DNA from: Bacteroidia bacterium
GTDB taxonomy: Bacteria; Bacteroidota; Bacteroidia; Bacteroidales; Prolixibacteraceae
DNA: 40,727 nt
Assembly: GCA_026391295.1 (NCBI GenBank)
Contig: JAPLDS010000023.1
Coordinates: 36,923 to 77,649 of the forward strand
Direction of reading: 5' to 3'
This document shows positions 7,911 through 18,822 of this stretch, in pieces. How positions within the stretch are numbered: position 1 is the first letter of the stretch; each line of letters starts with the position of its first letter. The notes beneath the pieces were generated by a model. That model saw nothing but the letters and a program-made list of their open reading frames with translations. It was not told the origin of the DNA and searched no databases. The translations under genes and the position numbers were made by a program.

Positions 7911-7940
7911 TTGTCTATCACCAAGTAAATCTTATTTTTG
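7911..7940 (+). promoter_or_regulatory. Bacteroidota sigma-ABfr type promoter before the oxidoreductase
   Basis: TTG at 7911-7913 and TATTTTTG at 7933-7940 are separated by exactly 19 nt, matching the -33/-7 consensus (TTG-N19-TAnnTTTG) known for this phylum. The ATG of the Gfo/Idh/MocA gene lies 42 bp downstream. This is the cleanest promoter in the window and argues that the start is the ATG at 7983, not the TTG at 7938. Confidence 0.75.
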
Positions 7941-7982
7941 TTACCCTATATTAAAAACTTCCAAACAAATCAATCAACTAGT

Positions 7983-9254
7983 ATGGATAAAAATTCCCCA
8001 AATCGTAGAACATTTCTAAAAGCATCAGCTGCAGCAGCTGCAGGAATTATGATTATTCCACGTCATGCCCTTGGTGGACCAGGAGTTATTGCACCGACCG
8101 ACCAGCTGACTAAAGCTATAATTGGTACCGGAGGAATGGGACGCGGTCATATTCAATATGAAGGAACAAAAGTTGTGGCTATTTGCGATGTCGACAAAAA
8201 ACATCTTCAACTAGCTAAATCATTAATTCCAAATGATGTAGCTACATTTCATGATTATCGCGAACTATTGCTTCGCCCTGAGATTGATATTGTACATATC
8301 GCAACACCTCCTCACTGGCATGGTCTAATGGCTATTGAAGCTGCTCGCGCAGGAAAAGATATCTGGTGCGAAAAACCAATGACTCGTACCATTGGTGAAG
8401 GACAACGTGTTGTTGAGGAGGTTAATAAACATGGTCGGATGTTCCGCTTAAACACGTGGTTCCGATTTAAAGATAATTTCTATGGTTTAGGAACCGATGT
8501 TAAACCATTGAAAAAAGTGATCGAGAGTGGAATATTAGGATGGCCTTTAAAGGTTACCGTAAGTGGAATTACAGGTTTCGACTGGAAATTCTACTGGCGT
8601 GGTGAGACCAACCTATCTCCAGAACCAATTCCAGAAGAGTTAGACTATGATTTCTGGTTAGGTCCTGCACCCCATCGTCCATATAATGCAAAACGTGTAC
8701 ATACAAACTTCCGCGGATATTGGGATTATGATGGTGGTGGATTAGGAGATATGGGTCAACATTACCTCGATCCAGTGCAATACTTCCTTGGAAAAGACAA
8801 TACTAGCCCTGTAAAAATTGAAGTGGATGCTCCACAACAACACGAGGATGCAGTTGGCGTATGGCGTAGAATTGAATACACCTATGCTGATGGCTGCAAG
8901 ATAATCCTTGACGGCGAAAACAAAGATAAAGATGCTGCTTATATCGAAGGACCTCATGGAAAGATCTTCAAAGGATTTGAATCTACCATTCCAAATATTA
9001 AACAGTTTATCGAAACACTTCCAGATCCAGAACCACGCATTACAACGTTCTCTGAATCTGTAAGAACAAGACAAAAATTTGCCCTAAATGAGATGAACGG
9101 ACACCGTTCATGTACCTTAGTTAACATGGGTATTTTAGCTATTAGACTAGGACGCACATTGAATTTCGATCCTGACAAACAAGTGTTTATCGACGACGAG
9201 GCAGCAAATCGCTTAATCCATCAGCCGATGAGAGCACCTTGGACAACCATTTAA
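7983..9254 (+). CDS. Tat-exported Gfo/Idh/MocA family oxidoreductase
   Basis: This is a 423-residue NAD(P)-dependent sugar oxidoreductase with an N-terminal twin-arginine signal (NRRTFLKASAAAAAG), meaning it is folded with its cofactor and then exported. The Rossmann glycine motif is IGTGGMGRG (about 48-55), the conserved EKP lies in CEKPMTRT, and the catalytic-region motif GGGLGDMGQHYLDP contains the usual Asp and His. Exported members in Bacteroidota oxidise glycosides at C3 to give 3-keto sugars. It forms a likely operon with the DUF1080 protein 73 bp downstream, the family that cleaves such 3-keto glycosides. I start at the ATG because it lies just after the promoter and begins right at the Tat signal. 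Confidence 0.9.
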   Translation: MDKNSPNRRTFLKASAAAAAGIMIIPRHALGGPGVIAPTDQLTKAIIGTGGMGRGHIQYEGTKVVAICDVDKKHLQLAKSLIPNDVATFHDYRELLLRPEIDIVHIATPPHWHGLMAIEAARAGKDIWCEKPMTRTIGEGQRVVEEVNKHGRMFRLNTWFRFKDNFYGLGTDVKPLKKVIESGILGWPLKVTVSGITGFDWKFYWRGETNLSPEPIPEELDYDFWLGPAPHRPYNAKRVHTNFRGYWDYDGGGLGDMGQHYLDPVQYFLGKDNTSPVKIEVDAPQQHEDAVGVWRRIEYTYADGCKIILDGENKDKDAAYIEGPHGKIFKGFESTIPNIKQFIETLPDPEPRITTFSESVRTRQKFALNEMNGHRSCTLVNMGILAIRLGRTLNFDPDKQVFIDDEAANRLIHQPMRAPWTTI

Positions 9255-9327: not shown

Positions 9328-9783
9328 ATGAACAAAATTTTTAATTCTCTTGTATTAGCCTTGACTTTAATGCTAGTTTCAACTAGTCTTCAAGCGCAAG
9401 AAAACAGAACAATTACGACAAAGATTGCCGACTTAATGGCTCAGATGCCTTCTAGCAATCTTCAACTACGTGACAAACTAGCTGAAGAAGTCATCGCTCT
9501 TGGGAGTGATGGTTTCCAACAAATGGCTGAAAAAATGACTCCATCTGGAAAAGGTGACAATTCAGCTCTTGTGTTTGCTATAAACGGTCTAACTCGATAT
9601 GCGAGCCAACCTGGCAAAGAGGCAGCTCGTAGCTTTGCTGAATCAGCATTTATTACTGCATTAGGAAAAGCTTCTGATGCTGAAGTAAAAGCCTTTCTTA
9701 TTCGTCCATTAAAATTGATTGGTAAAGACAAAGCGGTATCAGCTCTTGCAATGCATTGCCTAGAGCTGAAGGGTCTTGCTTAA
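9328..9783 (+). CDS. HEAT-repeat/DUF1080 protein, N-terminal fragment before a frameshift
   Basis: This 151-residue piece has a signal peptide (MNKIFNSLVLALTLMLVSTSLQAQ) followed by alpha-helical HEAT-like sequence. It stops at the TAA at 9781-9783, but the helical repeats carry straight on in the -1 frame (9756-12638). The two pieces clearly form one gene of about 1,100 codons broken by a net one-base loss between 9751 and 9783. If the break is real, this exported fragment lacks all catalytic domains. It starts 73 bp after the oxidoreductase gene and is probably co-transcribed with it. A sequencing or assembly error is equally possible. Confidence 0.8.
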   Translation: MNKIFNSLVLALTLMLVSTSLQAQENRTITTKIADLMAQMPSSNLQLRDKLAEEVIALGSDGFQQMAEKMTPSGKGDNSALVFAINGLTRYASQPGKEAARSFAESAFITALGKASDAEVKAFLIRPLKLIGKDKAVSALAMHCLELKGLA

Positions 9784-12638
9784 CCACTATCACAAGATCT
9801 TTAGGGGTTCTTCAGGTAACTGAAGCTAATGCAACAATCTTAAAAAGCATTAATTCTGAAAATCAAAACCTTAAGCGTGTTTCATTGGCTGCATTAGCAT
9901 CTATCGCTTCTGCTGACTCCTATGGACCATTATTAAATGCGGCAAAAGCTGCTGGATTTGTCTATGAGCCTTCGAATGCAACAGCTGCATTCTTGTCATA
10001 TGCAAACCGTTTAGGTGAGACTGGCAACTTGACTTTATGTACTAAAGCTTGTGACGAATTGATCAATAGCTGTCAATCTGCAGCTCAATTGCACACCAAA
10101 TCTTCTGCACTAAGTACCTATATGCATTTCTTTGAAAACGAAGCTCAAGCCAAATTGCTTAATGCATTTGACAATAGCGACAAGCCATTTAGATTTGCGG
10201 TACTAAACTTAGCAGCAAAAAGTAAGGCGGCATCAGTTAAGGCTTGGATTACAAAAGCCTCAAAAGCGAAGCCAGAACAACAAGCTGAAATAATTGAGAT
10301 GTTAGGTAAGAAAGGGGATCTTTCTGCTGAATCGTTTATTAAAAAACACTTTAAAAGTAAATCAGAGGTAGTTAGTGAGGCCTCTATTTTAGCCTATAGC
10401 AAGCTGAAGGGCAAAGATGCAATTGCAGAGCTTTCAACCTTACTAAGTAAAGGAACTTCACCAAACGCTACAACAAAAGCATTGATGTCATTAGTTGACA
10501 GCAAAGGGCTCGACCAACTAGCTCAGTCCTTAGATAAAGCACCTGAAAAAGCAAAGAGTGAAATCATCACCATTATTGGAGCTAAATCTGGCAAACAATA
10601 CTTTGATCAAATTTACAAATACACCCAAAGCACAAATGCAGCGATTCAAACAGCCGCTTATGGTGCGATGAAAAACACAGCCTCAGCAAAAAACTACGAT
10701 CAACTGTTGAAACTGTTGTATGCCACTGATGACAAGGATAAAATCAAAAGTATTCAGGAGGCTATTGTGAATGCCGCTGCTGAAATCCCAGACAAAAATG
10801 CTCAGACTGCACCTTTGTTGGCAAAAATTGAATTAACCACAAACATCGTACGCATTACTGAAATACTACCGAGCCTTGGAGGGGCTAAAGCATTAAAAGC
10901 GATGAAGAATTTAATTCGCTCAAAAAATGCAGCCGACCATGATGCAGCCTTCACTGCTCTACTCGCTTGGAAAGATCAGGAAGCCTCTAATACGCTTTAT
11001 GAGCTAAGTAAAACCCTTACTGGATCAGAAATTTCTAGTGCTATAACTAGCTATGTTCGTCAGATTAAGAGCTCAAAATTACCGGATGATCAAAAGCTTT
11101 TGCAATACCGCAAAATCTTGCCTTATGCAACTGACAAAAAAGACAAACAACTTTTAGTTGGATCATTAGGTCAAGTAAAGACTTTCTTATCATTAGTAAC
11201 GGCTGCATCTTATTTAGACAATCCAGATGTTAAAGAAGAGGCTACTTCAGCTGTCATGACTATTGCATTACCTTCTGGAGGTAAAAAAGGTCTATCAGGC
11301 GTGACAGTCCGAAATGCCTTAAACAAAGCACTAAGCAGCTTAGGAGGCAGTGAAAGCGAATACGACAGAACAAGAATTCAAAACTACCTTGACGAGATGT
11401 CTTATGAAGATGGTCTTACCCCTATGTTTAACGGCAAAGATTTGACCGGCTGGCAAGCGCTAGTTGGAAATCCAATAACACGAGGAAAAATGACCCCTGA
11501 AGAGCTTGCAAAGAAACAAGCTGAGGCAAACTCAAAACTAGGAAGCAATTGGGTTGCTAAAGATGGTACGATCAGTTTCAATGGGGCTGGCGATAACCTT
11601 TGCTCTGTAAAGAAATATGGTGATTTTGAGATGGTCGTTGACTGGAGAATAACAAAAAAAGGAGATAGCGGAATCTATCTACGTGGTACTCCGCAAATCC
11701 AAATCTGGGATACGTCGCGTGTAGAAGTAGGTGCTCAGGTGGGTTCAGGTGGATTATACAACAACAAGAAAAATCGTGCTACACCACTTAAAGTTGCAGA
11801 CAATCCAGTTGGAGAATGGAATACCTTCAGAGTTCGAATGATTGGCGAAAAAGTTACTGTTTACCTAAATGGGGAGTTAGTCGTTGATAATGTTACTCTA
11901 GAAAACTATTGGGATCGCGCGAATCCAATCTTCCCTAAAGAAGCTATCGAATTACAAGCACATGGTACGGACCTTGCTTTCCGTGATATCTACGTTCAAG
12001 AGTTAAACAATGAAGAATATGTTGTTCCTGCAGAGGAAGCAAAAGAAGGATACAAAGCACTATTCAATGGTAAAAACTTTGAAGGATGGACAGGAAATCT
12101 AATTGATTACCATGCTGAGAATGGAGAAATTGTGCTTCACGTAGACGATGGCCCATCGCATGGAAACATTTTCACTGCTGATGAATACGGAGATTTCAGT
12201 ATCCGATTTGAGTTCCAATTAACTCCGGCGGCGAATAATGGCCTTGGAATACGTGCACCTTTAAAAGGAGATGCTGCCTACCAAGGTATGGAAATACAAG
12301 TCTTAGATAATGAAGATCCTGTTTATGCAAATCTTGCACCTTACCAATACCACGGATCTGTTTATGGTATCCTTCCAGCAAAAAGAGGGTTCTTAAAACC
12401 ACTTGGACAATGGAATACAGAAGAGGTTGTTGCAAAAGGGAACAAAATTAAAGTCACCCTTAATGGAACTGTAATCTTAGATGGAGACATTAAAGAGGAT
12501 GCAAAAAATGGACCTTTAGATCATAAACCACATCCTGGCCTGTTCAACGCAAAAGGACATATTGGTTTCTTAGGTCATGGATCGATTGTTAAGTTTAGAA
12601 GTATCAGATTAAAAGACTTGACAAAAAAGAAAAAGTAA
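9756..12638 (+). CDS. HEAT repeats plus two DUF1080 (3-keto-glycoside hydrolase) domains, main fragment
   Basis: This frame continues the gene at 9328 after a -1 shift. Residues ~1-540 are alpha-helical HEAT-like repeats rich in Ala, Lys and Ser. Residues ~550-755 form a first DUF1080 domain (opens with LTPMFNGKDLTGW, contains GDSGIYLRG and QIQIWD, ends ELQAHGTDLAFRDIYV). Residues ~765-955 form a second one (opens YKALFNGKNFEGW, contains NNGLGIRAP and GMEIQVLD, ends GHIGFLGHGSIVKFRSIRL). DUF1080 (PF06439) members hydrolyse 3-keto glycosides, so the partner oxidoreductase upstream would make the substrate. Without the upstream signal peptide this part would not be exported. The TTG at 9756 is only the edge of the open frame and is probably not a real start. 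Confidence 0.85.
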   Translation: MPRAEGSCLTTITRSLGVLQVTEANATILKSINSENQNLKRVSLAALASIASADSYGPLLNAAKAAGFVYEPSNATAAFLSYANRLGETGNLTLCTKACDELINSCQSAAQLHTKSSALSTYMHFFENEAQAKLLNAFDNSDKPFRFAVLNLAAKSKAASVKAWITKASKAKPEQQAEIIEMLGKKGDLSAESFIKKHFKSKSEVVSEASILAYSKLKGKDAIAELSTLLSKGTSPNATTKALMSLVDSKGLDQLAQSLDKAPEKAKSEIITIIGAKSGKQYFDQIYKYTQSTNAAIQTAAYGAMKNTASAKNYDQLLKLLYATDDKDKIKSIQEAIVNAAAEIPDKNAQTAPLLAKIELTTNIVRITEILPSLGGAKALKAMKNLIRSKNAADHDAAFTALLAWKDQEASNTLYELSKTLTGSEISSAITSYVRQIKSSKLPDDQKLLQYRKILPYATDKKDKQLLVGSLGQVKTFLSLVTAASYLDNPDVKEEATSAVMTIALPSGGKKGLSGVTVRNALNKALSSLGGSESEYDRTRIQNYLDEMSYEDGLTPMFNGKDLTGWQALVGNPITRGKMTPEELAKKQAEANSKLGSNWVAKDGTISFNGAGDNLCSVKKYGDFEMVVDWRITKKGDSGIYLRGTPQIQIWDTSRVEVGAQVGSGGLYNNKKNRATPLKVADNPVGEWNTFRVRMIGEKVTVYLNGELVVDNVTLENYWDRANPIFPKEAIELQAHGTDLAFRDIYVQELNNEEYVVPAEEAKEGYKALFNGKNFEGWTGNLIDYHAENGEIVLHVDDGPSHGNIFTADEYGDFSIRFEFQLTPAANNGLGIRAPLKGDAAYQGMEIQVLDNEDPVYANLAPYQYHGSVYGILPAKRGFLKPLGQWNTEEVVAKGNKIKVTLNGTVILDGDIKEDAKNGPLDHKPHPGLFNAKGHIGFLGHGSIVKFRSIRLKDLTKKKK

Positions 12639-12755: not shown

Positions 12756-13865
12756 ATGAGCTCAGAAACGACAACGCTTTCGGCACAATCAAGAATCCAA
12801 TCCATTGACTTTTTCAGGGGTTTTACCATGTTTATGCTTATTGGAGAATTTTCAGGGTTTCTTGGGACATTAAGTAATCCATTCTTTGAAGGGACATTTA
12901 TCAGCGCCATAGGCGAGCAACTTGATCATGCCGAATGGATTGGGCTTCATTTCTGGGATCTTATTCAGCCATTTTTCATGTTTATCGTTGGTGTTGCAAT
13001 GCCATTTTCGATGACAAAGAGGTGGAACAATGGTGAAACTTGGCCTTCAACCTTGCGTCATGCAGCTATTCGGTCTGTCTCCTTGTTATTTCTTGGTTGG
13101 GCCCTCTATTGTATTGGACCTGGAAAAATAACTTTCCGATTTACGAATGTCTTAGCACAGCTATCAGTAACCTACTTTATTGCCTTCTTACTCTTACGCA
13201 AGACTGTAAAATGGCAGCTAATTGTCTCATTCGCGTTAATCCTTCTCGCTGATTTACTTTATCGCTTCTGGCCTGTAGAAGGGTTTAATCAACCTTTTAC
13301 CCCGGATCAGAATTTCGGATCGTGGTTTGATCTTGCCCTTACTGGACGACTAGGTGGTGGCCATTGGGTTTCCTTTAATGCGATCGCAACATCAGCCCAC
13401 ACTATTTGGGGGGTGCTGGCCGGAATGATTTTAATGAATGAATGGACACCTAAAAAAAAGATACAGACATTATTACTAGCTGGACTAGCAGGACTTGTTA
13501 TCGGTTACGGTTTAAGTCCCTTCACTCCTATCATTAAGCATATCTGTACGAGCTCATTTGTTTTTGTAAGTGGTGGATGGTGCCTTATCGCGATGGCCTT
13601 TTCGTATTGGTTTGTGGATATAAAAGGGTACAAAAAATTTGCACTTTTCTTTGCCATAATAGGCATGAATCCATTGTTTATTTACTTCTTTGCGCATACC
13701 AACGGAACTAATTGGGTTAGCTCGCTTGTTAAGCCCTTTGTAAATTTACTTTTTGGATCATTCGGTGAGTTGCCGAGTCAGATGGCGCAATCCATGACAG
13801 TTTGGATGGCGATGTGGGGAATTTGTTATTTCCTTTACAAGCGAAAAATATTTATTCGATTATAG
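12756..13865 (+). CDS. DUF5009 (NagX/HGSNAT-like) membrane protein
   Basis: The 369-residue protein has about ten hydrophobic segments. It shows the marks of the DUF5009/DUF1624 family: SIDFFRGFTMFMLI at the start and DHAEWIGLHFWDLIQPFFMFIVG in the second segment. In the animal relative HGSNAT a histidine is acetylated and the acetyl group moves across the membrane to glucosamine ends; bacterial NagX members are found in N-acetylglucosamine gene sets and are proposed transporters or acyltransferases. Here the neighbours include a sodium:solute symporter and a GH20 enzyme, which fits an amino-sugar role. That role is inference. A hairpin upstream separates it from the DUF1080 operon, and the next gene follows after 16 bp. 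Confidence 0.82.
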   Translation: MSSETTTLSAQSRIQSIDFFRGFTMFMLIGEFSGFLGTLSNPFFEGTFISAIGEQLDHAEWIGLHFWDLIQPFFMFIVGVAMPFSMTKRWNNGETWPSTLRHAAIRSVSLLFLGWALYCIGPGKITFRFTNVLAQLSVTYFIAFLLLRKTVKWQLIVSFALILLADLLYRFWPVEGFNQPFTPDQNFGSWFDLALTGRLGGGHWVSFNAIATSAHTIWGVLAGMILMNEWTPKKKIQTLLLAGLAGLVIGYGLSPFTPIIKHICTSSFVFVSGGWCLIAMAFSYWFVDIKGYKKFALFFAIIGMNPLFIYFFAHTNGTNWVSSLVKPFVNLLFGSFGELPSQMAQSMTVWMAMWGICYFLYKRKIFIRL

Positions 13866-13881
13866 TTAACACGATTAGATT

Positions 13882-14775
13882 GTGAAAAGTAAGATTAAGA
13901 AAATAACCATCAACTTATTAAAACTAGGTGTTTCAGTAGGTGCAATTTGGTGGGTCCTATCGAAAATATCCTTCAAAGAGGTATTAGGTGTATTTTCGGC
14001 TGCAAACTTCTACTATTTAGCAGCAGCATTTGTATTGCTATTCATCTCTTTTATTTTTTCGGCTTTTCGACAAAACCTATCCTTTCGAAATACAGGAGCG
14101 AACCTCTCGCAGGCATTAAACATTAAGCTTTTTTGGCTGGGCATGTTCTATAATTTATTTCTTCCAGGAGGTATAGGCGGTGATGGATACAAAGTTTACT
14201 TAGTCAATAAATACCGAAAAAATGGATTAAAAAAGAATATTGGCACAATGCTCGTTAACCGCATTGCCGGTCTAGTAGCCATTGGCATGATAACCATCGT
14301 ACTATATTACCTCTCGGGTTTACATCTTTCTTATGGCAAGCAAGTTTGGATTTTAATTCCATTGCTTTACCTATTTTATCTAGTGGTCCTAAAATACTTT
14401 TTCAAGAGCTTCCTGAATATCCATGCTGGGTTGTTCTGGTGGTCTTTAGCTCTACAAACAATGCAGTTTATTTCGGCTATTTTTATCCTTTATGCCTTTC
14501 ATCAAACGACCGATATTTTTGATTATTTATTTTTATTTTTCATCTCGGCTATTGCCACAGCATTGCCAATAACCATTGGGGGCATTGGAGCACGCGAAAT
14601 GGTTTTTCTTGTTGGTGCAAAAATGTTAGGTCTTAATAATGAACTCTGTATCGCACTAAGTCTTATGTTTTTTCTTCTCTCTGCCATAATCTCCTTTGGA
14701 GGATTATATTGGGTTTTTCTACCTCCATTTCGGAAAGAAACTGAACCAACCGAGTCGACAGAAATTACAAACTGA
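13882..14775 (+). CDS. UPF0104 / LPG synthetase transmembrane-region family protein
   Basis: This 297-residue integral membrane protein has seven to eight hydrophobic segments and belongs to the lysylphosphatidylglycerol synthetase transmembrane-region family (UPF0104, flippase-like). Typical segments are LFWLGMFYNLFLPGGIGGDGYK and, near the end, ALPITIGGIGAREM. Stand-alone members lack the soluble aminoacyl-transfer domain and are thought to move or handle lipids; the substrate is unknown. The start is a GTG at 13882 (MKSKIKKIT), 16 bp after the DUF5009 stop. It may simply be carried in this operon without sharing the pathway. Confidence 0.8.
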   Translation: MKSKIKKITINLLKLGVSVGAIWWVLSKISFKEVLGVFSAANFYYLAAAFVLLFISFIFSAFRQNLSFRNTGANLSQALNIKLFWLGMFYNLFLPGGIGGDGYKVYLVNKYRKNGLKKNIGTMLVNRIAGLVAIGMITIVLYYLSGLHLSYGKQVWILIPLLYLFYLVVLKYFFKSFLNIHAGLFWWSLALQTMQFISAIFILYAFHQTTDIFDYLFLFFISAIATALPITIGGIGAREMVFLVGAKMLGLNNELCIALSLMFFLLSAIISFGGLYWVFLPPFRKETEPTESTEITN

Positions 14776-14846: not shown

Positions 14847-16196
14847 ATGCTAAAATATATCATCATTGCTGTGTACCTTGTTTCAATGCTCATCATTGGA
14901 ATGATCTCAGCCAGAAAAATAAAATCTGAAGACGACTATTTTGTTGCAGGAAGACGAGGCAATATCTGGCAAATAACCGGCTCATTATTAGCTACAATCC
15001 TTGGAAGTTCAGCTATTTTAGGAACCGCTGATTTAGCATTTACACAAGGCTGGGCAGCCTCATGGCTCCTATTTTGCGCCGCTATTGGTCTTTTCTTTCT
15101 AGTCCCACTTTCTAAATTCGTTAGACGACAAGATAAAATTACCTTACCACAGATGATTGGTGAATATTACGGTTCAGAGGCCAAAATCGTATCGTCAACC
15201 ATTATTGCAATTGCTTGGATTGGTATAATTGCAGCGCAAATTATTGGGGCAGCCAAAATCATGACCGGCTTTACAGGTTTAAACTATAGCATCGGAGTCT
15301 GGGGTGCTGGAGCAATATTTATCTTTTATACCATAATAGGTGGGCAAATTTCAGTCTTAAAAACAGATCTATACCAATCGATACTCATTATTGGTGGGAT
15401 CATAATGACAGCTATCTATCTTCTGCTAAAAGAACCGGTGTCACCACTAACCCTTACAACACTTAACTTTCCTTTTAATGAAGGATTCCAGCCATTCGAC
15501 TTAGTTATTCTTTTACTCACCTACTCCACCGCTTTTGTTGTTGGACCAGATATCTATACCCGATTATTTTGTGCAGAAAATGAGCAGATAGCTAAAAAAA
15601 GTGTTCTTATCAGCGCCTTTATCCTTATACCTTTCTCGCTCTGCATAACATTTTTAGGAGTTTACTCAGCTTATAAATTTCCAGAAATAAGCCAACAGAA
15701 AGGATCGGCTCTAATACCCGTTATGTTGGCGAACTTGCCTGAATGGGGTATTGGCATACTCGTTGCAGCACTCCTTTCAGCCGTTATGTCCACAGGATCT
15801 ACAACTTTACTGACAGCATCTACGATCATTAGCGATCCCTTATCAAAAGGGCTAAACCAAAAAGGAGCAGTTACTAAGACGAAAATTATCATGCTCTTGA
15901 TGGGAGTTTTAAGCATCACACTAGCCCTTAGCGTACAGTCCATTATCCAATCGTTACTCATTGCCTTAGCCATGTTTTCAGGAGCCTTTATTATCCCAAC
16001 TATTGCTGGGATATTTGGCTATAAAACCAGTAAAATAAGAAGTAGCTCAGCCATGATAATCGGAGGAGTTGTAGCCGTTTGCGGAAAAATATGTTGCGTA
16101 AACCACCTGAACAACATTGGCAATTGGCTAATAATCATCGGTTTCATCTTGAACGCAGCGATTCTTTTTAGTCCAAAACCAACTAAAAATAATTAA
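14847..16196 (+). CDS. sodium:solute symporter family protein
   Basis: The 449-residue protein has about 13 membrane segments and the pattern of the SSS family (LeuT fold): the N-terminal YLVSMLIIGMISARK, then DDYFVAGRR, then GSLLATILGSSAILGTADLAF in the first core helix and ALLSAVMSTGSTTLLTAS in a later core helix, where Ser and Thr residues usually help bind Na+. It imports an unidentified solute with sodium. Lying between a NagX-like protein and a GH20 enzyme, it may carry an amino sugar or related product, but substrate cannot be predicted from sequence alone. The GH20 gene begins 42 bp downstream and appears to have its own promoter. Confidence 0.87.
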   Translation: MLKYIIIAVYLVSMLIIGMISARKIKSEDDYFVAGRRGNIWQITGSLLATILGSSAILGTADLAFTQGWAASWLLFCAAIGLFFLVPLSKFVRRQDKITLPQMIGEYYGSEAKIVSSTIIAIAWIGIIAAQIIGAAKIMTGFTGLNYSIGVWGAGAIFIFYTIIGGQISVLKTDLYQSILIIGGIIMTAIYLLLKEPVSPLTLTTLNFPFNEGFQPFDLVILLLTYSTAFVVGPDIYTRLFCAENEQIAKKSVLISAFILIPFSLCITFLGVYSAYKFPEISQQKGSALIPVMLANLPEWGIGILVAALLSAVMSTGSTTLLTASTIISDPLSKGLNQKGAVTKTKIIMLLMGVLSITLALSVQSIIQSLLIALAMFSGAFIIPTIAGIFGYKTSKIRSSSAMIIGGVVAVCGKICCVNHLNNIGNWLIIIGFILNAAILFSPKPTKNN

Positions 16197-16201
16197 TTTC
16201 A

Positions 16202-16209
16202 TACCTTTG
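16202..16209 (+). promoter_or_regulatory. putative -7 promoter box before the GH20 gene
   Basis: TACCTTTG matches TAnnTTTG and lies 29 bp before the GH20 ATG, a usual leader length. There is no TTG at the ideal -33 position. It suggests GH20 can be expressed apart from the symporter gene. Confidence 0.5.
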
Positions 16210-16238: not shown

Positions 16239-17867
16239 ATGAATCTGCGCCCATCCTTAGTAATCCTTGTCACCATCTTGCTCCTATTCTCATGCAAAGA
16301 TGCTCCTATAAGGCCAGTCATTCGGATCATTCCACTTCCAGCTCAATCGGCAGATGTAGACGAGATCTATACCCTTGAAAGTAGTACGCGTATAGAGATA
16401 AACAATGATAGTGATCAGCTGCGTAAAATTGCAAAGTACCTAAGTAATCACATTGAGACATATTTTGGATTATCAAATGACATAATCATCTCTGAATCAA
16501 AAGACAAGAAAGCAATATTTTTAAAGCTTGACGAGAACTTAAAAATTGGAAAAGAGGATTATCATCTCAATGTGCAATCCAATGGAATTATTATAGAGGC
16601 TTCATCTCCAAATGGTCTTTTTTATGGGGTACAGACGCTAATACAGCTAATGCCAGCAGTACCTAAAAAGCTTACTGCGGTAAACATCCCCGGAGTTGAG
16701 ATTAATGATACACCACGTTTTGCTTGGAGAGGACTCCAACTTGATGTGAGTCGTCATTTTATGCCCAAAGATTTCATGCTAAAATACTTAGATGAAATGG
16801 CATTGCATAAACTAAACACCCTTCAATGGCATCTAACCGACGACCAAGGATGGAGAGTTGAGATCAAAAAATATCCCCGACTTACCGAAATTGGATCAGT
16901 GCGAAATAAAACAATCATAGGACATATTAATAATTCATATAGTTCAGATACATTATCAGTAGGAGGCTATTATACTCAAAACGACATACGTGATATCGTC
17001 GCCTATGCGAAAGAGCGTTATATCACCATTGTGCCTGAAATAGCAATGCCTGGTCATTCTCTTGCTGCTTTGGCAGCCTATCCAGAATTAGGTTGCACAG
17101 CATCAAATTACGAAGTAGCTTCAAGATGGGGACAATTCAGTGATGTCTTTTGCCCTGGGAAGGAGACAACCTTTAGCTTTATAAAAGAGGTTGTTCAGGA
17201 GATGGCTCCTTTGTTCCCTGGTAAATATTTTCACGTTGGAGGTGCCGAATGCCCAGAGACTAGATGGGAGAAATGTTCGCAATGCCAACAAAGAGTGGAA
17301 AGTGACAGCTTAGAAACGTCACATAGTCTTCATGGGTACTTTAGTAAGCGAGTGAGCGAAATAGTACATGCGGCCGGAAAAGAAACAGCTGAGTGGGATG
17401 ATGTTTTGCAAGACTCTACTGTTTCAAAAGGAGTTATTATAACTTGGCATGGCGAAGATGGAATTATTAAGGCTACAAAAAGAAATAATCAAACAGTGGT
17501 ATCTCCTGGAAGATTTTACAATTTCGATCAATATCAAAACAATCCAAAAGAAGAGCCACTGGCTATTGGGGGCCTTATAACACTTGAACAGGTCTATAAT
17601 TTCGAACCAATACCAAAAGATTTATCGGTACGTGACTCCAGAAACATCATTGGTGTTCAAGCAAACCTATGGACGCCCTATATGAAAACGCCTATGGTTG
17701 TAGAATATATGACCTTTCCTCGCGCCGCCGCTTTAGCTGAGGTGGGATGGTCACCAAAAGAGAGTCGAAACTACGTTTGGTTTATGAAAAGAATGCAGTT
17801 TCAGATTAAACGATATGAGGCAGAAAAGATAACCTACAGCAAGGCTGAATTTAAAGTAGCGCTTTAA
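16239..17867 (+). CDS. GH20 beta-hexosaminidase-like lipoprotein with altered active site
   Basis: The 542-residue protein has a lipoprotein signal (LLLFSC, Cys19), a GH20b-like N-terminal domain (~25-155) and a GH20 TIM barrel (~160-510) starting at RFAWRGLQLDVSRHFMP. GH20 enzymes remove terminal GlcNAc or GalNAc using the substrate's own acetamido group. The overall motifs are clear (LQWHLTDDQGW, PGHSLAALAAYPELGC, VEYMTFPRAAALAE), and the acid/base Glu337 is present. Three usually conserved positions differ: the acidic residue of PEI[DE]MPGH is Ala269, the Asp of HVGGDE is Ala336, and the Glu of the WTE motif is Pro480. These residues normally tune the acid, orient the acetamido group and bind O4/O6. 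The protein may be inactive, a binder, or have another specificity. Confidence 0.88.
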   Translation: MNLRPSLVILVTILLLFSCKDAPIRPVIRIIPLPAQSADVDEIYTLESSTRIEINNDSDQLRKIAKYLSNHIETYFGLSNDIIISESKDKKAIFLKLDENLKIGKEDYHLNVQSNGIIIEASSPNGLFYGVQTLIQLMPAVPKKLTAVNIPGVEINDTPRFAWRGLQLDVSRHFMPKDFMLKYLDEMALHKLNTLQWHLTDDQGWRVEIKKYPRLTEIGSVRNKTIIGHINNSYSSDTLSVGGYYTQNDIRDIVAYAKERYITIVPEIAMPGHSLAALAAYPELGCTASNYEVASRWGQFSDVFCPGKETTFSFIKEVVQEMAPLFPGKYFHVGGAECPETRWEKCSQCQQRVESDSLETSHSLHGYFSKRVSEIVHAAGKETAEWDDVLQDSTVSKGVIITWHGEDGIIKATKRNNQTVVSPGRFYNFDQYQNNPKEEPLAIGGLITLEQVYNFEPIPKDLSVRDSRNIIGVQANLWTPYMKTPMVVEYMTFPRAAALAEVGWSPKESRNYVWFMKRMQFQIKRYEAEKITYSKAEFKVAL

Positions 17868-17886
17868 CGAGGTATTACATATTATT

Positions 17887-17923
17887 AAAAAAGGCTGCAT
17901 CAATATTGATGCAGCCCTTTTTA
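17887..17923. terminator. bidirectional intrinsic terminator between convergent genes
   Basis: A perfect 24-nt palindrome, GGCTGCATCA...TGATGCAGCC at 17893-17916, is flanked by six A on the left and CTTTTT on the right. It lies between the stops of the GH20 gene (+) and the coiled-coil lipoprotein gene (-) and can end transcription from both sides. Confidence 0.85.
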
Positions 17924-17940: not shown

Positions 17941-18822
17941 TTATTTTGCGACTATAACTAAGACTTTAGATGCACTCCAAAACTCTTTAGCATTCAGAAT
18001 AATAATTTTTTCTACTGAGTTAGTCCCTTCCAACTTATAAGAACCTGTTGGATGAGTAGTCAGTATGGTAACTTTCTTTTTCAAAACTGGAATCTCATTC
18101 ACCTTGGTAATATCCACTCTGGTAAAATCGGCCATATTAAGATCGGCTAGCACATTTTTCGTACGACCAATTCCAATAAAACCACCAGCTCCAGTAATAA
18201 TTTTTTTATCCTTTAGCTCCCGATTGGTGCCAATAACATAATAAGCAGTATTCAAGGCTTCCGTCTTAGCATCAATATCAGCTTGCTTTTTCTGGTTCTC
18301 AGCACTTAAATTACTAACATTCGTCTTTAGGTTAGAAACTTTCACATTTAAATCCTTAACCTCAATATTCATTTTACCAAGCTCTTCAGATAGTTGTGCG
18401 ATCTGCGTGTTCTTCTCATCAATCGACTTATTTAAGTTATTGATCATTTTCTGAAGCTCAGCAACATGACGATTCGACTTACTTAACTTAGCGGTAAGAT
18501 CAGCGACTAACTTTCTATTTTTCTGAAGTAAATCATAGATATAGGCGATATCACTTTTAATCTGTTCCTTACGAGAACTCTGCACTTCACCCGATTTAGT
18601 GCTCATGGAGATAACTCGTTCAACCCGTTTAATAGAATCTAAATTAGCTTCAACCTCGTTAAAAGTGGCAACAAACTCAGAGATATTCGAATCTTTATCA
18701 GATCCAACAGCTCTTAAGCTATCATTTTGCGCTTTAAGACGAGCAACTTCAGCTTTCCGGTTATCGCAACTGTAGAAGGAAACAAGAAATGGAATCATCA
18801 AGATATAGCAAAGCTTTTTCAT
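17941..18822 (-). CDS. coiled-coil lipoprotein of unknown function
   Basis: The 293-residue protein starts with a lipoprotein signal (LVSFYSC, Cys19). Residues ~20-45 and ~95-195 are strongly heptad-like, with many Lys, Glu, Leu and Asn, and should form long coiled coils. The C-terminal ~90 residues form a compact beta-rich domain (ELKDKKIITGAGGFIGIGR, then the HPTGSYKLEGTNSVEKIIIL segment). Proteins of this build are common in Bacteroidota and are thought to lie in the periplasm anchored by lipid; their function is not known. It lies downstream of the ABC-F gene on the same strand, 75 bp away, and could be read through from it. Confidence 0.75.
   Translation of the reverse strand: MKKLCYILMIPFLVSFYSCDNRKAEVARLKAQNDSLRAVGSDKDSNISEFVATFNEVEANLDSIKRVERVISMSTKSGEVQSSRKEQIKSDIAYIYDLLQKNRKLVADLTAKLSKSNRHVAELQKMINNLNKSIDEKNTQIAQLSEELGKMNIEVKDLNVKVSNLKTNVSNLSAENQKKQADIDAKTEALNTAYYVIGTNRELKDKKIITGAGGFIGIGRTKNVLADLNMADFTRVDITKVNEIPVLKKKVTILTTHPTGSYKLEGTNSVEKIIILNAKEFWSASKVLVIVAK

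Follow-up and report, generated by a model that had tools for sequence, protein, structure and literature searches.

In GH20 enzymes, substrate-assisted catalysis requires an Asp that holds the acetamido group of the substrate (PMC8098473), and in SpHex this residue is one of nine that make up the -1 subsite: Arg162, Asp313, Glu314, Trp344, Trp361, Tyr393, Asp395, Trp442 and Glu444 (PMC8098473, Table 3). In VhGlcNAcase, replacement of this Asp by Ala lowers kcat/Km 848-fold, and loss of the Glu of the WxE motif, taken alone, costs 3-fold (PMC8098473). The same Asp has been replaced in SpHex D313A/N (1m03, 1m04), VhGlcNAcase D437A (6ezt) and Bt4394 D335N (7dvb), each a single laboratory change. 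We found no natural GH20 pseudoenzyme in the open-access literature searched. In another family, Bacteroidales pseudo-GH18s (BT1284 and a GH18-like protein of B. faecium) likewise combine a glycosidase fold with replaced catalytic residues, and their activity is impaired; BT1284 showed no measurable binding to the high-mannose glycans tested (PMC11180146), so that a lectin role cannot be taken for granted in the GH20 pseudoenzyme candidate described below.

The candidate is encoded within a stretch of 40,727 nucleotides that was analysed as a whole (the window) and comes from an uncultured Bacteroidia genus:

16239..17867, plus strand: GH20-fold lipoprotein with a degenerate active site, a pseudoenzyme candidate, 542 aa (Pfam, AF2, Foldseek).
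16239..16295, plus strand: lipoprotein signal peptide with lipobox Cys19 (LLLFSC-KDAP), read from the sequence; Cys at residue 19 in 15/15 orthologues.

The frame opens with ATG and holds no internal stop. Its catalytic (beta/alpha)8 domain matches Pfam GH20 (PF00728) over residues 161-506 (1.3e-111, 373.7 bits against a gathering score of 22.3), and a GH20b domain (PF02838) lies N-terminal to it at residues 28-157 (1.1e-19). The AF2 model is a confident GH20 fold (pLDDT 87.9, pTM 0.89) that matches GH20 structures, including those of the engineered Asp mutants, across 515-530 columns; its top Foldseek match is BT0459, a beta-hexosaminidase of B. thetaiotaomicron (6q63, TM 0.89, rmsd 1.8 Å), followed by Bt4394. 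BT0459 is 41% identical over 515 columns, has the same GH20b-GH20 order, and aligns ungapped at the EI.PGH, GG.EC and W motifs, whereas it carries D, D, Y and E opposite A269, A336, N428 and P480 and has about 230 extra C-terminal residues. A first-pass annotation made from the letters alone had described an open frame with well-kept fold motifs, and both points hold.

To compare active sites, SpHex numbers were paired with positions in this protein through motifs common to the alignments, and each position was followed through the 15 orthologues of the genus and through 12 orthologues of two sister genera, g7 and g8:

16752..16754, plus strand: Arg172 (SpHex Arg162), kept in 15/15 orthologues.
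17043..17045, plus strand: Ala269 (codon GCA) replacing the Asp/Glu of PEI[DE]MPGH; orthologues A 3, G 3, E 9; sisters E 12/12.
17055..17057, plus strand: His273 (VhGlcNAcase His373 by motif; SpHex His250 equivalent), kept in 15/15 orthologues.
17244..17246, plus strand: Ala336 (codon GCC) replacing the Asp of HxGGDE (SpHex Asp313); A 13 and T 2 of 15; D in 12/12 sisters and 40/40 genus paralogues.
17247..17249, plus strand: Glu337 (codon GAA), the acid/base position (SpHex Glu314); E 9 and D 6 of 15, with at least five switches in the clade.
17394..17396, plus strand: Trp386 (SpHex Trp344), wall of the -1 subsite, kept in 15/15 orthologues.
17445..17447, plus strand: Trp403 (SpHex Trp361), wall of the -1 subsite, kept in 15/15 orthologues.
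17520..17522, plus strand: Asn428 replacing the Tyr of Y-[FL]-D (SpHex Tyr393); N 15/15; Y in 12/12 sisters, 94/94 canonical GH20s and 40/40 genus paralogues.
17526..17528, plus strand: Asp430 (SpHex Asp395), kept in 15/15 orthologues.
17529..17531, plus strand: Gln431 replacing His, an invariant clade-specific switch; Q 15/15, H in 12/12 sisters.
17670..17672, plus strand: Trp478 (SpHex Trp442), kept in 15/15 orthologues.
17676..17678, plus strand: Pro480 (codon CCC) replacing the Glu of WxE (SpHex Glu444); P 5, Q 8 and A 2 of 15; E in 12/12 sisters.

The three substitutions reported at first pass (Ala269, Ala336, Pro480) are thus real, as the codons and the BT0459 alignment attest, and a fourth first-shell change, Asn428 for Tyr, had been missed although it is clade-wide. 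Of the residues that mark a functional GH20, the Asp-Glu pair of HxGGDE, the Tyr of Y-[FL]-D and the Glu of WxE are broken, and the Arg, the Trp wall and the equivalents of Asp395 and His250 persist in every orthologue; Asp202 is also retained. By the SpHex inventory five of the nine -1 subsite residues remain (R172, W386, W403, D430, W478). The loop at 421-430, which carries Asn428, has a mean pLDDT of 68 here vs 89 in the sister protein modelled with the same alignment rows, a difference that gives at most a hint of a remodelled loop.

Among 18 genomes of the genus, 15 carry exactly one orthologue (59-96% identity to the window protein), including all 11 of high quality; the three that have none are incomplete assemblies (64, 78 and 82%), in one of which the contig stops inside the neighbouring symporter gene. 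Asp336, Tyr428 and Glu480 are replaced in all 15. The proposal that the three substitutions first noticed are shared by a clade beside symporter genes is therefore borne out at 336 and 480 and fails at 269, where the acid is lost in 6 of 15, Ala being confined to the three nearest species, with Gly in three others and Glu in the remaining nine. Engineered mutants differ from this pattern in carrying one change each, against three first-shell changes fixed genus-wide here.

Across the family (140 genomes, 23 genera) close relatives occur in just two other genera, g7 and g8, whose orthologues (L022, L023, L104-L113; 47-52% identity) all have the canonical D, E, Y and E (12/12); g7 includes two co-orthologues in each of G141 and G142 (L104, L106, L112, L113), all with the canonical site. 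A further 40 GH20s of the same genus keep D336, E337 and Y428 without exception. Four of the genus paralogues (L240-L243, in G010, G005, G009 and G012) have W-S-H instead of W-x-E with the D-E pair intact, and these possibly act on a different substrate class. G[GA]DE was present in every relative found outside the clade. A scan of 395 genomes from the class with [FIL]H[IV]GG[AT][DE], a pattern that admits Ala and Thr replacements only and was run without counting the GH20s it sampled, recovered this gene alone, its 25 other matches being non-GH20 proteins.

The positions replaced in every orthologue all belong to the first shell of the -1 subsite. Across 94 canonical GH20s, conservation reaches 95% or more at 59 positions. 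The 15 orthologues leave 46 of these untouched throughout, and 336, 428 and 480 are the sole ones that differ in every orthologue; three random picks from the 59 all land among the eight first-shell positions in 56 of 32509 cases (chance ~0.002), where it should be noted that the canonical set was selected by G[GA]DE, which makes D336 and E337 100% conserved by construction, and that Y428 and E480 were not selected for.

In the tree the 15 orthologues form one clade (support 100/100) whose stem measures 0.5 changes per site, with g8 as its sister (100/95) and g7 next out. Given this placement, the simplest history puts the loss of D336, Y428 and E480 on the clade stem. We infer that the loss arose once, on the stem of the genus, and that positions 267 and 269 eroded, and 337 alternated between Glu and Asp, only later: within the clade 267 changed at least four times, 269 three times, and the Glu/Asp switch at 337 took place at least five times.

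The gene order around the clade members was compared with that in g7 and g8. The neighbours in the window are:

12756..13865, plus strand: NagX/HGSNAT-like membrane acyltransferase, a usual but inconstant neighbour (NF046061, 134 bits, below the cut-off of 480); 12/14 assessable loci.
13882..14775, plus strand: flippase-like LPG_synthase_TM membrane protein, constant second upstream neighbour (Pfam 9.3e-30); 15/15 loci.
14847..16196, plus strand: SSS sodium/solute symporter, constant upstream neighbour (Pfam SSF 5.9e-30); adjacent in 15/15 loci.
17941..18822, minus strand: Cbp1-family lipoprotein, convergent downstream neighbour (NF052320, 269.9 bits); 11/12 assessable clade loci.

The order flippase-like gene, SSS, GH20 is retained in 15/15 loci; the nearest PDB sequence to the symporter is 5nv9, a putative sodium:solute symporter (2e-9). 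An ABCF gene lies beyond Cbp1 downstream, and the intact GH20 of g8 likewise faces Cbp1 (L129, L132) and ABCF, from which we take the clade and g8 genes to occupy the same locus. Upstream the two part ways: g7 and g8 have SSS elsewhere than GH20 (SSS is paired with the flippase-like gene in g7, and NagX with the flippase-like gene in g8), and their GH20s lack the SSS and flippase-like neighbours and have an aspartokinase-like gene upstream. In L128-L133 (g7, g8) the intact GH20 is divergent from an upstream block that we named by eye as aspartokinase-like and methionine-biosynthesis-like. Since SSS lies elsewhere in both sister genera, catalysis appears to have been lost on the same stem on which GH20 arrived behind SSS, and this coincidence of loss and relocation is our one piece of evidence for a functional link with the symporter. 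The NagX/HGSNAT-like protein was considered as the key partner, following a suggestion made at first pass of a link to unusual amino sugars, and was set aside: it is missing in 2 of the 14 assessable loci, occurs as several divergent copies per genome, and is paired in g8 with the flippase-like gene and not with GH20.

We consider the protein to be probably a GH20 pseudoenzyme that can no longer perform acetamido-assisted hydrolysis and has been retained in a non-hydrolytic role, a reading drawn from sequence comparison. Group-wide loss of catalytic residues under purifying selection, one mark of such proteins, is seen here in 15/15 orthologues, with dN/dS of 0.044 and 0.048 against the two nearest genomes; the other mark, lack of activity, is argued from published single mutants. 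The same changes led the first-pass annotation to offer two possibilities, another substrate or mechanism and a sugar-binding pseudoenzyme, and the second fares better, with sugar binding as a possible activity.

The first of these, a still glycoside-active enzyme of altered chemistry, is unlikely though it is the best of the rivals. Its substrate would lack the 2-acetamido group, and the acid at 337 would act with Asp202, His273 and Asp430, perhaps on 3-keto or plain hexosides. GH20s mutated at one residue still show residual activity, and these changes might be compatible with a different substrate. Position 337 is acidic in 15/15 orthologues (Glu in 12/12 sisters), and this, together with the retention of His273, Asp202, Arg172 and Asp430, is more than an unconstrained pocket would keep and counts against a pseudoenzyme; the three kept Trp and the newly invariant Asn428, Gln431 and Asp392, in or beside active-site motifs, also agree with continued chemistry. 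The emphasis that was first placed on an intact Glu337 must nonetheless be given up: the residue is Asp in 6 of 15 and interchanges repeatedly among close relatives, which would not be expected of a working acid/base and which favours a non-catalytic function over new chemistry. Nor is any new conserved carboxylate apparent as a nucleophile, although the clade-specific switches include Asp392 and Glu450, whose geometry might allow it.

The hexosides would be made by the products of the 3-keto genes (Gfo/Idh/MocA and 3-keto-disaccharide hydrolase) that lie upstream in most loci, but G003 and G008 lack these genes beside the locus, and in the window they are broken. The 3-keto-disaccharide hydrolase/HEAT gene there is split into two overlapping frames (9328-9783 and 9756-12638) and lacks about 27 codons of the 1137-codon frame present in a close relative, G016 (L114), which may be either a real disruption or an assembly error. 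The Tat-signal Gfo/Idh/MocA oxidoreductase (window 7938-9254) is 87-98% identical in the genus members that have it at the locus, which makes it one of the most highly conserved in the cluster.

Weak residual hexosaminidase activity, reduced yet adequate for the niche, is quite improbable. The fold and GH20b are intact, and a loss of the Glu480 type costs only 3-fold in VhGlcNAcase; a loss of the Asp336 type costs 848-fold, and here it is joined by loss of Tyr428 in all 15 species. With Asp, Tyr and Glu gone together, ordinary hexosaminidase activity is very likely absent, and the original argument that the substitutions speak against ordinary GlcNAc cleavage is upheld and strengthened. The same species moreover own other GH20s with an intact D-E pair (five in the window's own genome, all with GGDE).

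Decay to a constraint-free pseudogene is very improbable. It might explain the active-site drift at positions 200, 267, 269, 337, 385 and 388 and the place of GH20 near the bottom of its cluster in conservation (59-63% identity vs 66-94% for most neighbours), but dN/dS near 0.05 contradicts it, as do the open frame in 15/15 orthologues, the full retention of 46 of the 59 family-conserved positions, and the kept promoter box and signal peptide. By the Nei-Gojobori method, for which dS above about 1 is unreliable, other clade pairs with estimable dS gave dN/dS of 0.04-0.11, and intact GH20 paralogues of the same genomes gave 0.042-0.095. An artefact of sequencing, assembly or alignment, to which apparently metagenome-assembled genomes of many contigs might be prone, can be dismissed, because 14 further genus genomes share the loss at 336 and 480, and the same three sites are changed, to differing residues and in ungapped motifs, across 15 genomes of 59-96% identity.

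Returning to the pseudoenzyme reading, we asked where the protein would act and how it is transcribed. After Cys19 the orthologues have C-K-[DE]-[A/P/Q], with a single acidic residue in 14/15 (C-E-K-P in L018), and they lack the lipoprotein export signal K-(D/E)2, although the signal may differ in this genus. In Capnocytophaga, K-D alone is insufficient for efficient surface display (PMC5080379). The lipoprotein is for these reasons more likely to face the periplasm from the outer membrane, and a surface glycan-binding role was rejected on the weakness of the export signal. No SusC/SusD domain occurs in the scanned window proteins around the gene; SusC/SusD-like genes are apparently upstream in G003 (L119, by eye). 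Signals flanking the gene are:

16202..16209, plus strand: Bacteroidota-type -7 box TACCTTTG (TAnnTTTG), 37 nt before the ATG; box in 13/15 orthologues.
17893..17923, plus strand: terminator hairpin GGCTGCATCA-ATAT-TGATGCAGCC followed by a T run, read from the sequence (-20.7 kcal/mol).

The box, TAnnTTTG being what we take to be the Bacteroidota -7 consensus, stands 36-37 nt ahead of the ATG in these 13 orthologues (about 0.04 expected per 65 nt) and is kept though the surrounding sequence diverges. This suggests that the GH20 gene can be transcribed alone, from its own box, and it makes obligatory co-transcription with SSS harder to argue.

As we picture it, an ancestral GH20 would have lost D336, Y428 and E480 once, on the genus stem, after which 267 and 269 eroded and 337 alternated between Glu and Asp; the remodelled pocket (Asn428, Gln431, Asp392) would then bind a ligand without cutting it, perhaps on behalf of the adjacent SSS symporter. 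The parts of this picture differ in strength. The kept R172, W386, W403, W478 and D430, with the three newly invariant residues, suggest a pocket that may still be in use, and the chance that it binds a ligand seems to us about even. Partnership with the symporter is possible but doubtful. More tentative still, and on balance unlikely, is the fullest version, in which a periplasmic ligand-binding lipoprotein converted once on the stem serves SSS, its former -1 pocket holding a sugar without a 2-acetamido group.

The GH20 pseudoenzyme candidate is real and lineage-wide, neither an artefact nor a single-genome oddity, and any function beyond the loss of hydrolysis is putative. Judged by its GH20 profile match alone, the clade protein would be misannotated as an active hexosaminidase. 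Orthologues with a complete site (in g8 beside the same genes) and the three first-shell losses in 15 species form a clean before-and-after pair, on which the loss of catalysis by a glycosidase and its recruitment to a different role can be put to the test.
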